Assembly (NCBI RefSeq): GCF_900113675.1
Contig: NZ_FOQE01000022.1
Span: forward strand, 1-37,990
Reading direction: 5' to 3'
DNA length: 37,990 bases
DNA from: Pisciglobus halotolerans
GTDB taxonomy: Bacteria > Bacillota > Bacilli > Lactobacillales > Carnobacteriaceae
Part shown: positions 322 through 14,506 of the stretch, piece after piece
How positions within the stretch are numbered: the first letter of the stretch is position 1
Layout: every line of letters starts with the position of its first letter
Notes under the pieces: generated by a model
The model's input: only the letters and a program-made list of their open reading frames with translations
Database searches by the model: none
What the model was told of the DNA's origin: nothing
Made by a program: the position numbers and the translations under genes

Positions 322-1326
322 ATGAAAAAATGGTTAGTAACAGCAACTGCTGTATTAACGGGATTAGTTATTGCCGGCTGTTCAAACGATACAGTAGCTT
401 CTTCTACAGCTGGAAAAATTTCACAAGAAGAATTATACGATGCCATGAAAGAATCTTATGGAGAACAAACGCTTCAACAACTTTTAATGAAAGATGTATT
501 ATCTGATCAATATGGTGATAAAGTATCTGATAAAGATGTTCAAGCACAATACAATCAAGAAATGGAAACTTATGGCGGAGAAGAACAATTCAATCAAGTT
601 CTTTCCTACTCTGGATACACAAAAGAATCTTACCAAGACTTGATTAAACAAAGCTTATTAATGGAAGCAGCGGTTAAAGCAAATACGGACTTCAAAGATG
701 AAGAAATCAAAAAAGCTTATGAAAGCTATGAACCACCAATGACTGCTTCTCATATTTTAGTAGCAGACGAAAAAACAGCGAAAGAAGTTATTGATCAATT
801 AAATGACGGTGCTGATTTTGCTGATTTAGCCAAAAAATATTCTACGGATACAGGAACTGCTAAAGACGGTGGTCAAGTAACATTCAGCAAAGGCGAAATG
901 GTTCCTGAATTTGAAGAAGCTGCTCTTAAACTAAAAGAAGGCGAATATACAAAAGACCCAGTGAAATCTGATTACGGTTTCCACGTGATCAAGATGGATA
1001 AGAAACCTGAAAAAGAATCACTAGATAAAGAAAAAGACGCCATCAAAGATCAATTGACTAAAGAAAAACTTTCTGATAACGATTATGTAGCAAAAGTTCT
1101 TTCTAAAGTCTTCAAAGATGCAAATATCATCATCAATGATGAAGATTTACAACATGCTATGGATGCTTATCTGCAATCAGATGCTGATTCTTCTAAATCC
1201 ACGGATTCTTCTGAAGTAACAGATTCTTCTGAAGCAACTTCCGATAAAGATTCTTCAAAAGATGAAGCTGATAAATCTGACTCTTCAAAAGATGAAGCTG
1301 ACAAAGATTCAAGTTCTAAAGAATAA
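322..1326 (+). CDS. prsA: PrsA, extracytoplasmic peptidyl-prolyl isomerase lipoprotein
   Basis: This is a foldase for secreted proteins, anchored as a lipoprotein on the outer face of the membrane. The N-terminus has two Lys, a hydrophobic stretch and a lipobox ending VIAGC, with Cys20 as the lipidated residue. A parvulin-type rotamase domain spans about residues 141-226 (start SHILVA, end GFHVIK) and is flanked by the helical chaperone segments usual in PrsA. Residues ~286-334 form a low-complexity Ser/Asp/Lys/Glu tail with a near-duplicated SSKDEADK block that is longer than in many PrsA proteins. The ATG has only a loose Shine-Dalgarno (AGGA at 303-306, or GGA at 310-312). It is the only large gene read rightward here and is followed at once by a strong terminator. 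Family assignment is firm. Confidence 0.95.
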   Translation: MKKWLVTATAVLTGLVIAGCSNDTVASSTAGKISQEELYDAMKESYGEQTLQQLLMKDVLSDQYGDKVSDKDVQAQYNQEMETYGGEEQFNQVLSYSGYTKESYQDLIKQSLLMEAAVKANTDFKDEEIKKAYESYEPPMTASHILVADEKTAKEVIDQLNDGADFADLAKKYSTDTGTAKDGGQVTFSKGEMVPEFEEAALKLKEGEYTKDPVKSDYGFHVIKMDKKPEKESLDKEKDAIKDQLTKEKLSDNDYVAKVLSKVFKDANIIINDEDLQHAMDAYLQSDADSSKSTDSSEVTDSSEATSDKDSSKDEADKSDSSKDEADKDSSSKE

Positions 1327-1330
1327 AACA

Positions 1331-1370
1331 AAAGGAATGCCGCTATTATTGACAGCGGCATTCCTTTTTT
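1331..1370. terminator. bidirectional terminator between prsA and yhaM
   Basis: A 14-bp perfect stem (1331-1344 with 1354-1367) has a 9-nt loop. In the plus direction it ends in TTTTTT, and in the minus direction in TTTTGTTTT. It ends prsA and can also end the yhaO-yhaN-yhaM transcript. A MITE-like element is inserted directly beside its plus-strand T-run. Confidence 0.9.
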
Positions 1371-1375
1371 ATATT
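1368..1375 (+). repeat. left target-site duplication of element copy 1
   Basis: TTTATATT, repeated exactly at 1477-1484 on the other side of the element. It overlaps the T-run of the prsA terminator. Confidence 0.8.
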
Positions 1376-1476
1376 GCTTCTTCATCTTTTAACATTGGTA
1401 AAGAAATGGGATTCTAACGGATTTAGCACGTAAAAGAAATCCTTTTTTACTGACCAACGTTAAATATTGTAGAACC
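1376..1476 (+). mobile_element. MITE-like element, copy 1 (101 bp, internally deleted)
   Basis: The element starts GCTTCTTCATC and ends GTAGAACC. Its ends are imperfect terminal inverted repeats of ~25 bp built on GGTTCT...TTTAACGTTGGT. It is flanked exactly by the 8-bp direct repeat TTTATATT. It matches the two outer parts of the 282-bp copy at 14217-14498 in the same orientation but lacks ~181 bp of the middle. The join falls at an AGAAAT sequence that occurs twice in the long copy (14243-14248 and 14425-14430), so copy 1 looks like a deletion between short direct repeats. There is no coding capacity. The GGTTCT-like ends and 8-bp duplications suit ISL3- or IS6-type transposases, but the family is not proven. 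Confidence 0.8.
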
Positions 1477-1484
1477 TTTATATT
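1477..1484 (+). repeat. right target-site duplication of element copy 1
   Basis: TTTATATT, the exact partner of 1368-1375. Removing the element and one copy restores a terminator T-run followed by the yhaM 3' flank. Confidence 0.8.
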
Positions 1485-1494
1485 TAGATTGGCA

Positions 1495-2487
1495 TCAAAA
1501 AAGTGTATCACTCTCTTCCTCTTTTTCATTGCTCAATCTATTTGTGTTTGGTTTATAAAAAGAACGATTATCCAATCCAAAAATGCGTTCACTGAAAGTG
1601 CCCGGTTCTGTTCGATTCAATGTATTGTTCAACATGTTGATCGTCGCATCCAAATGGTCGATATGATAGAGAATTTCAGCCTCCCTTAGTTTTGGAACTA
1701 CAGGAGAACCAAAATCGAGTTTTCCATGATGAGCCAAGATCATATGTTTCAACAAAGTAACATCTTCGATCTTATCATTGATCTTCAACGCCTGACAAGC
1801 CTTTGTGATTTCTTCATCAACAAGCACAATATGCCCTACTAAGTTTCCTTCTAATGTATATTCGGTTGAAACCGGTCCGGTCAATTCCATGACTTTCCCT
1901 AGATCGTGCAAGATAACGCCTGCATATAATAAAGAATGATCAATTTCTTCGTATTGTGCAGTAATACTTTTCGCTAATCTCAGCATTGACACCGTATGAA
2001 AAGCTAAACCGCCATAAAAAGCATGATGGAATCTTTTAGCAGCTGGTGCTTGGAAATATTCTTTCTGATATTTATTCAATAAGTACCGTACAATACGATT
2101 CCAATTTGCGTTCGTGATTTCAAATACAGTCTCATTGATTTCTTCCATCATATCTTCTTTTTTGATGGGGGCTTTTTCAATAAATTGTTCAGCCTTATCA
2201 GGTTCGCCAGCATTTGTCAGTCGCATATGAAACAATCGAATCTGCGGATTTCCTTGGTACAATTCTCTTTTTCCAGAAACTTTTACGACTGTACCTCCTT
2301 GATATTTTTCAATATCTGCTTCGTTAGCATCCCAGTACTTCCCATCCATTTGTCCGCTTTTATCTTGAAACGTAAAAGCGATAAACTTTTTTCCGTTTTT
2401 CGCTACTCGAACAATAGCGGATTTAATAAGCAAAAATAAATCGAACGTTTCATCAATATTATAATCATAGAGTTTTTTCTCATCCAT
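1495..2487 (-). CDS. yhaM: YhaM, 3'-5' exoribonuclease (OB fold + HD domain)
   Basis: This metal-dependent 3'-5' exonuclease acts on RNA and single-stranded DNA in mRNA turnover. An OB-fold nucleic-acid-binding region occupies about residues 15-95. An HD phosphohydrolase domain follows, with candidate metal ligands His164, His194-Asp195 (motif ILHDLGK), His219, and the HH pair at 253-254 in LAHHGKLDFGSP. The length of 330 aa is close to the ~314 aa usual for the family. The ATG follows a good Shine-Dalgarno (GAGGTGA). It is the last gene of a yhaO-yhaN-yhaM operon, 31 bp after yhaN. Its 3' UTR runs through the MITE-like element before reaching the terminator shared with prsA. Confidence 0.95.
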   Translation of the reverse strand: MDEKKLYDYNIDETFDLFLLIKSAIVRVAKNGKKFIAFTFQDKSGQMDGKYWDANEADIEKYQGGTVVKVSGKRELYQGNPQIRLFHMRLTNAGEPDKAEQFIEKAPIKKEDMMEEINETVFEITNANWNRIVRYLLNKYQKEYFQAPAAKRFHHAFYGGLAFHTVSMLRLAKSITAQYEEIDHSLLYAGVILHDLGKVMELTGPVSTEYTLEGNLVGHIVLVDEEITKACQALKINDKIEDVTLLKHMILAHHGKLDFGSPVVPKLREAEILYHIDHLDATINMLNNTLNRTEPGTFSERIFGLDNRSFYKPNTNRLSNEKEEESDTLF

Positions 2488-14171: not shown

Positions 14172-14209
14172 AAAAGAGAGGAACTAGGGCATCTTCTCCT
14201 AGTTCCTCT
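14172..14209 (-). terminator. intrinsic terminator between comN and dinB
   Basis: A 12-bp stem (AGAGGAACTAGG at 14177-14188 with CCTAGTTCCTCT at 14198-14209) is followed on the minus strand by TTTTGTTG. It would end the comN transcript after it has passed through element copy 2. In the plus direction the tail is only TTTATAGT, which is also the target duplication of that element. Confidence 0.75.
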
Positions 14210-14216
14210 TTATAGT
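14209..14216 (+). repeat. left target-site duplication of element copy 2
   Basis: TTTATAGT, repeated exactly at 14499-14506. It starts at the last base of the terminator stem. Confidence 0.8.
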
Positions 14217-14498
14217 GGGTCTTCCTCTTTTAACGTTGGTAAAGAAATTTCCTACGGTCGATGGGCTACTGATGGAAAGCCATGAGAACACATTGAGCCG
14301 AAAATCGCGTCTCAATGCTTGCAAGCTTCAAACTTAGTGTAACGGCTAAAGCCTAACACTAAGTGATTCACATTGCATCTTTTTTCATGGCTATCAGTAG
14401 CCCTATGCGCCTCCTGAAATTTCTAGAAATAGGATTCTAACGAGCTTAGCATTAAAAAAATTGATTTTTTACAGACCAACGTTAAATATTGTAGAACC
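14217..14498 (+). mobile_element. MITE-like element, copy 2 (282 bp, long form)
   Basis: The ends are GGGTCTTCCTC and GTAGAACC, forming ~25-bp imperfect terminal inverted repeats that share TTTAACGTTGGT. The whole element is a nested palindrome. The outer arms pair, then GGGCTACTGAT/AGCCATGA (14263-14285, with a 4-base bulge) pairs with 14385-14403. CTTAGTGT (14333-14340) pairs with ACACTAAG (14356-14363), and a GGCT/AGCC hairpin (14344-14353) sits at the tip. The exact 8-bp duplication TTTATAGT flanks it. There is no coding frame, so it must have been moved by a transposase from elsewhere. The outer ~50 bp at each side match copy 1 at 1376-1476. Confidence 0.85.
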
Positions 14499-14506
14499 TT
14501 TATAGT
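14499..14506 (+). repeat. right target-site duplication of element copy 2
   Basis: TTTATAGT, the exact partner of 14209-14216. Confidence 0.8.

Follow-up and report, generated by a model that had tools for sequence, protein, structure and literature searches.

At one end of the 37,990-nt window (the whole stretch of DNA that was analysed) lie two convergent genes, which we take to be prsA-like and yhaM-like, and the gap between them holds an intrinsic-terminator hairpin and a 101-bp element (Table 1). The element starts with GCTTCTTCATC and finishes with TGTAGAACC, as read directly from window positions 1376–1476, and the 8-mer TTTATATT stands on both sides of it. The hairpin on the prsA side of the gap (−22.6 kcal/mol) has a T-rich tail on the plus strand; a consensus terminator scan called it on the minus strand and not on the plus. 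The left TTTATATT begins in the T-run after this hairpin and lies within the prsA terminator tail, as a first-pass annotation of the sequence had noted. Because yhaM is on the opposite strand and ends at 1495, its transcript crosses the element before reaching the shared terminator; the same annotation had said so, and the location of the element between the yhaM stop codon and the terminator supports it. The host, there thought to be enterococcal, belongs instead to the Carnobacteriaceae near Desemzia, judged by the best YhaM matches, which were Desemzia sp. RIT 804 (80%) and Desemzia incerta (79%), with Carnobacterium next.

Table 1. Features of the prsA–yhaM gap and of the full-length MITE copy, in window coordinates.
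Feature	Position	Strand	Basis
prsA-like foldase lipoprotein gene	322..1326	+	ORF; similar proteins at 44.6–59.5% identity in 17 relatives
Intrinsic-terminator hairpin of the prsA–yhaM gap, usable from either side	1330..1368	.	Plus strand: hairpin and T-rich tail; minus strand: consensus scan
Left 8-bp target duplication TTTATATT, inside the prsA terminator T-run	1368..1375	.	Sequence
101-bp MITE copy, AGAACC end drawn at right	1376..1476	+	82-copy right-end family; BLAST against own genome
Left terminal inverted repeat of the 101-bp copy (GCTTCT; family GGTTCT)	1376..1399	+	Family comparison
Right terminal inverted repeat of the 101-bp copy (GGTTCTACAATATTTAACGTTGGT on the minus strand)	1453..1476	-	Family consensus
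Right 8-bp target duplication TTTATATT of the 101-bp copy	1477..1484	.	Sequence
yhaM-like exoribonuclease gene	1495..2487	-	ORF; match in 18/18 family genomes, own included
Terminator hairpin adjoining the left duplication of the 282-bp copy	14178..14208	+	L131; −17.8 kcal/mol
Left target duplication TTTATAGT of the 282-bp copy	14209..14216	.	Sequence
Full-length 282-bp copy of the same MITE family	14217..14498	+	Sequence comparison
Conserved structured core, absent from the 101-bp copy	14260..14407	+	Covariation; covariance-model match of 166.5 bits (the model was built with this sequence included)
Right target duplication TTTATAGT of the 282-bp copy	14499..14506	.	Sequence

Locally, the 101-bp copy is probably an ordinary, near-neutral insertion, which probably left the prsA terminator whole and added about 109 nt of structured 3′ untranslated sequence to the yhaM mRNA. 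The element might instead owe its retention to a role in RNA, such as that of an added stabilizing 3′ structure on the yhaM mRNA, in keeping with its place ahead of the terminator and with the folding of 1340–1500, which is better than that of shuffled sequences (z = −2.58, 2/200 as good). Part of that fold is the terminator itself, however, paired ends alone make such an element fold, and the MITE is absent at this position in all 17 relatives with the gap (see below), so that we regard retention for such a function as improbable. A promoter role of the element was rejected (one weak match versus 1.6 expected), and the idea that the element itself acts as a terminator was dropped, as the terminator scan listed none within it.

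An 82-Copy MITE Family in the Host Genome

The 2.44-Mb genome, searched as a draft of 88 contigs with a 25-base pattern at up to three mismatches, contains 82 right ends of the element; the reversed pattern, used as a control, found none. The left end is recognizable in all but three of the 82 copies (L107, L125, and L145). Neither the 101-bp copy nor the 282-bp copy in the same window is overlapped by an ORF of at least 80 codons, leaving the MITE without a transposase gene of its own, and the earlier description of a non-autonomous element with imperfect terminal inverted repeats holds for the family: the 24-bp family ends, GGTTCTTCCTCTTTTAACGTTGGT and GGTTCTACAATATTTAACGTTGGT, are inverted repeats that differ at five positions.

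The flanking 8-mers are identical in 51 copies, as at the 101-bp copy, where the exact duplication previously reported at 1368–1375 and 1477–1484 was confirmed; they differ by one mismatch in 13 copies and by two or more in 18. At most one mismatch was thus seen in 64/82 copies, as against ∼3% when flanks from different copies were paired as a control (0.4% identical, 2.8% with one mismatch). Over the 64 copies, 86% of the duplicated bases (442/512) are A or T. The word TTTATATT is common in the window (nine observed, 3.55 expected), and two unrelated occurrences could in principle flank an ordinary spacer by chance. This frequency makes the 8-mer by itself unremarkable; what is remarkable is its exact placement on both sides of a repeat copy, and since that repeat belongs to an 82-copy family, most members of which have matching 8-bp flanks, and the family-wide control speaks against chance, we consider coincidence extremely improbable.

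The copies fall mainly into three size classes, with 8 copies of 95–101 bp, 21 of 134–142 bp, and 45 of 277–288 bp; these ∼100-, ∼137-, and ∼282-bp classes account for 74 of the 82, and the remaining eight have other lengths. We conclude, with a probability of about 0.9, that the 101-bp feature belongs to a high-copy MITE with ISL3-type ends, of which it is a member with an internal deletion.

Short and Long Copies

The motif AGAAAT occurs in the 282-bp copy at 14243 and again at 14425, 182 bp apart, and the 282- and 101-bp copies differ in length by 181 bp. The first-pass annotation had related the two by a deletion between AGAAAT repeats, and the length difference bears out this part of the claim; simple trimming of the copy at 14217–14498 does not hold, since identity in the parts common to both is 85% over 75 bases and 93% over 29. 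Inspected by eye, seven of the eight ∼100-bp copies have the AGAAAT junction, that of L177 being different, and 20 of the 21 ∼137-bp copies lack the central hairpin between CTACTGA and CTCCTGA. The 101-bp form would have arisen by loss of the structured middle between the AGAAAT direct repeats, perhaps through slippage across the long hairpin.

That each short class has one common junction could also mean that the short copies propagate themselves as a distinct subfamily, rather than arising repeatedly by deletion from long copies, and five of the eight ∼100-bp copies show no more than one mismatch between their flanking 8-mers, in agreement with movement of their own. Yet the arms of the short classes do not stand apart: those of the ∼100-bp class have a mean identity of 0.81 to one another and of 0.85 to those of the 282-bp class, and both junctions lie at short direct repeats beside a hairpin, where deletion can recur. 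We therefore put a separate subfamily at a little under even odds and retain internal deletion as the preferred origin of the 101-bp copy. A search for a tight 101-bp subfamily revealed none; identity did not separate the outer arms of the three classes.

The exception among the 21 copies of the ∼137-bp class, L114, has its inner segment inverted between GAAATTTC palindromes.

Insertion Beside Intrinsic Terminators

For each copy the empty site was rebuilt, and a terminator was called where a hairpin of −8 kcal/mol or lower ended between −3 and +5 nt from the start of the duplication and at least five of the next eight bases were T. Counts were made over the 64 copies whose flanking 8-mers differ at one position or not at all, 18 of the 82 being dropped. 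A terminator was found at 31 of these 64 duplicated sites, on one strand in 15 cases and on the other in 16. The number expected was 1.5 from A/T-matched flanking DNA and 4.8 from A/T-matched intergenic DNA, a control whose A/T-richest class comprised 22 sites; against the latter, the binomial P is about 2e-18. The other 33 sites have no terminator by this criterion, and 17/64 overlap an ORF of at least 70 codons, a count in which spurious frames are included as well. Placement next to intrinsic terminators characterizes the family, beyond what base composition and intergenic location account for.

Of 40 regions taken from relatives, 24 yielded an end pair; 16 of the 24 had at most one flank mismatch, and 12 of those 16 were 257–284 bp long; no end pair was found in four D. 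incerta regions or in four from G010 and G015. A looser search, taking the best end pair per region, placed a terminator at 8/17 duplicated sites in relatives, a count that has no separate control. At the resident ISL3-family IS of the host genome, a terminator was present at 2/18 ends, with only one flank judgeable per end.

The element would insert into the T-tract (an A-tract on the other strand) beside the terminator stem, with duplication of 8 bp, and the hairpin and its first Ts would survive and the neighboring genes stay intact. Choice by the transposase, tolerance by the host, or a combination of the two may account for such sites. If survival alone were responsible, the element would enter any A/T-rich DNA, and copies behind terminators would be kept as harmless; 47 of the 64 duplicated sites do lie outside ORFs of at least 70 codons, and at the 31 sites with a terminator the stem end lies at −2 to +5 nt relative to the duplication start, so that the hairpin is spared. 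Against this, the ∼6-fold enrichment persists relative to intergenic sites of equal A/T content (31 versus 4.8 of 64), where gene disruption is not an issue, and survival without targeting seems to us to have a real, if clearly minority, chance of being the whole explanation. Targeting and harmless survival are hard to separate; the intergenic control favors some targeting.

ISL3-Type Ends and the Likely Mover

A match to PF01610, the ISL3-type DDE transposase domain, was found in 11/18 genomes of the family. Of 27 PF01610 loci inspected in Carnobacteriaceae, 15 have an end of the form GG[CT]TCT, 12–13 bases, [AG]TTGG, and 12, including three G010 copies inspected, have no such end by that pattern. 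Both ends were found at only three ISL3 loci (L215, L216, and L226), and the 8-bp flanks are identical at all three. The IS end closest to the MITE, in G014, has 3/24 mismatches to each MITE end. Ends of the MITE layout (at most one mismatch) occur in 6/18 family genomes, with none in the control; the host genome (G000) has 120 and G009 has eight, and G007, G008, G013, and G014 have one each. As the ends resemble those of ISL3-family IS in Carnobacteriaceae, we class the element as an ISL3-type MITE. The two share the GGNTCT....GTTGGT layout and 8-bp A/T-rich duplications, seen at the three IS copies with both ends; the MITE differs in lacking a transposase gene, and none of the intact IS found in the host genome has ends that match those of the MITE.

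The resident ISL3 IS of the host genome is ∼90% identical to one of G008, and its matches lie at contig edges (10 left-end and 8 right-end). Its left end differs from the two MITE ends at 5 and 10 of 24 positions and its right end at 9 and 9. The fifth PF01610 match in this genome is a decayed remnant with stop codons, whose right end is 7/24 off each MITE end. Four short IS matches sharing a 23-base word (C76, C58, C32, and C19) were set aside; C76 and C58 were read and looked unrelated, and all four were dropped on that basis. An intact ISL3 copy with the MITE's own ends was not found in the 88-contig draft. The autonomous IS with the same ends that the earlier annotation looked toward thus has a counterpart at the level of the ISL3 family in Carnobacteriaceae but no intact representative found in the host genome, where the exact parent is missing, unassembled, or extinct. 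Judging from its ends, the MITE is probably moved in trans by an ISL3-family transposase, which, present now or formerly, would recognize the GGNTCT...GTTGGT ends.

Two further observations concern the IS themselves. The ISL3 copy whose end is nearest the MITE (L228, on G014 C30) is interrupted upstream by what looks like, and we presume to be, a group II intron with a reverse transcriptase gene. On G010 C4, 16 whole-domain ISL3-family matches have nearly equal scores, which may point to a recent expansion.

The prsA–yhaM Gap in Relatives

The genes prsA and yhaM are neighbors in convergent orientation in every one of the 17 other genomes of the family that were examined, and none of these 17 gaps contains a MITE match at E 0.001; orthologous gaps free of the element, which the first-pass annotation had hoped to see, are therefore the rule. 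The count leaves out L261 and L262 (G002 and G014 again), L263–L265 (no prsA match), and L266, where prsA and yhaM are on the same strand. None of the 58 relatives compared is of the host's own genus, and the gaps of other genera are too divergent to show a single TTTATATT.

The gap of Desemzia sp. RIT 804 (L243) holds a different, 104-bp ISL3-type element immediately behind a hairpin and T-run, at bases 122–226 of the gap after yhaM. Its ends are 1 and 2 of 24 positions off the MITE ends of that genome, and its flanks, ACTTTTTT and TTTTTTTG, show no clean duplication. Because the ends are of another subfamily, and the terminator that it follows lies toward yhaM, with another hairpin closer to prsA, we take this element to have entered the gap independently. 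That another genus has its own short element following a terminator here accords with the preference seen in the host genome. In D. incerta (G004, L242) and in G016 (L248), the gap carries a different palindromic, ATTCGTGAAGTGGA-like repeat.

A Structured Core in Full-Length Copies

The 282-bp copy folds far better than shuffled sequences (z = −7.1), and its central part is a conserved core also found in other genomes (core loci L131, L289–L328, and L341–L348). The core alignment comprised 27 of 45 extracted segments from the host genome, Desemzia, and Carnobacterium-group genomes, after removal of L292, L299, L300, and L304 (large indels) and of 14 near-duplicates. Across the 27 sequences, 20 of the 45 pairs covary, changing on both sides yet still paired. 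Cells with changes on both sides number 104; shuffling gave a mean of 31, and sliding the structure by 1–3 columns gave no more than 22, both controls being somewhat flattering because the structure was derived from the same sequences, which are related by descent. Many of the unpaired core positions are invariant. No credible Rfam family was found for the core, the matches being far below gathering score only. In three core copies from Desemzia (L292, L299, and L304, in G009 and G004), an extra ∼60–70 nt running AGCTTTGCC...GAGAACAA was seen by eye before the CAAAC motif, which suggests a modular or nested repeat.

A covariance model of 26 sequences, with no more than 15 candidates scored per genome, found the core in 26/198 sampled genomes of the order: 11/18 of the host's own family, 11 of a second family, and four in three others. 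In a class-wide sample it was found in 3/299 genomes, namely the host genome and two others of the same order. By sequence similarity, the 282-bp copy has matches in 13/59 genomes searched, and the query from a second-family copy gave 10 matches in one Aerococcus tenax record, the best at 80.8% over half of the query; on account of these matches, the second core-bearing family appears to be the Aerococcaceae. In several second-family copies the sequence just outside the core is, by eye, unlike ISL3 ends, and a simple end-and-duplication search around these copies found almost nothing.

The 101-bp copy lacks the core, whose presence is thus not required for the identity of that copy. A more speculative reading, which we consider unlikely on present evidence, is that full-length copies carry a new kind of structured nucleic acid. 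This would be a branched, ∼150-nt fold with conservation at unpaired positions, which covariation maintains in both Carnobacteriaceae and Aerococcaceae; it would reside in elements whose ends differ and would work as RNA or as single-stranded DNA, perhaps by recruiting a transposase or host machinery to terminators. The 101-bp copy would then be a derivative that lost the core and kept the ends and the terminator-tail site.

Comparison With Known Elements

The EFAR repeats of Enterococcus faecalis are palindromic, vary in length, and enter stem-loop targets, replacing part of the stem-loop. Set against this general description of EFAR, the present MITE differs in leaving the hairpin intact and duplicating 8 bp.

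According to the parts of the account at hand, the RUP and BOX elements of Streptococcus pneumoniae are likewise short, high-copy, and structured, ending in inverted repeats and flanked by target duplications; BOX has a modular make-up and measures 67–637 bp, and RUP is linked to IS630-Spn1 and BOX to ISSpn2 (PMC3049150). These partners are not ISL3 elements, and in those parts of the account a preference for terminator tails is reported for neither (PMC3049150). The same source describes SPRITE elements as strongly enriched close to the 3′ ends of genes that converge, as prsA and yhaM do at the 101-bp copy; in the description given there, SPRITE is itself terminator-like with only AAAA/TTTT ends, whereas the MITE lies behind terminators and has 24-bp ends (PMC3049150). 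MITEAba12 of Acinetobacter, as excerpted, is ∼113 bp long and of nearly uniform length, with target duplications, as a rule of 9 bp, in 36/90 copies and a proposed parent, ISAba12, acting in trans (PMC6382973). It resembles the present family as a short MITE with a proposed IS parent in trans, and differs in its 9-bp duplications, its ISAba12 parent, its near-uniform length, and, as far as the excerpt goes, the lack of a described structured core (PMC6382973).

Searches of the plasmid collection with the 282-bp copy and of the phage collection with the 101-bp copy gave no match, and a 32-base end query against plasmids returned 52 records, all weak and, by organism tally, none from Carnobacteriaceae. 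No description of this MITE family was found in the titles and abstract openings listed by searches of the open-licence literature. The MITE family is new and ISL3-type, with an unusual preference for terminator tails.

Implications

To our knowledge, few bacterial elements favor intrinsic terminators. A covarying fold carried in the repeats of two families makes the core a candidate for a new class of structured RNA or DNA. If the transposase does read the T-tract or the hairpin, it would be a natural safe-site inserter.
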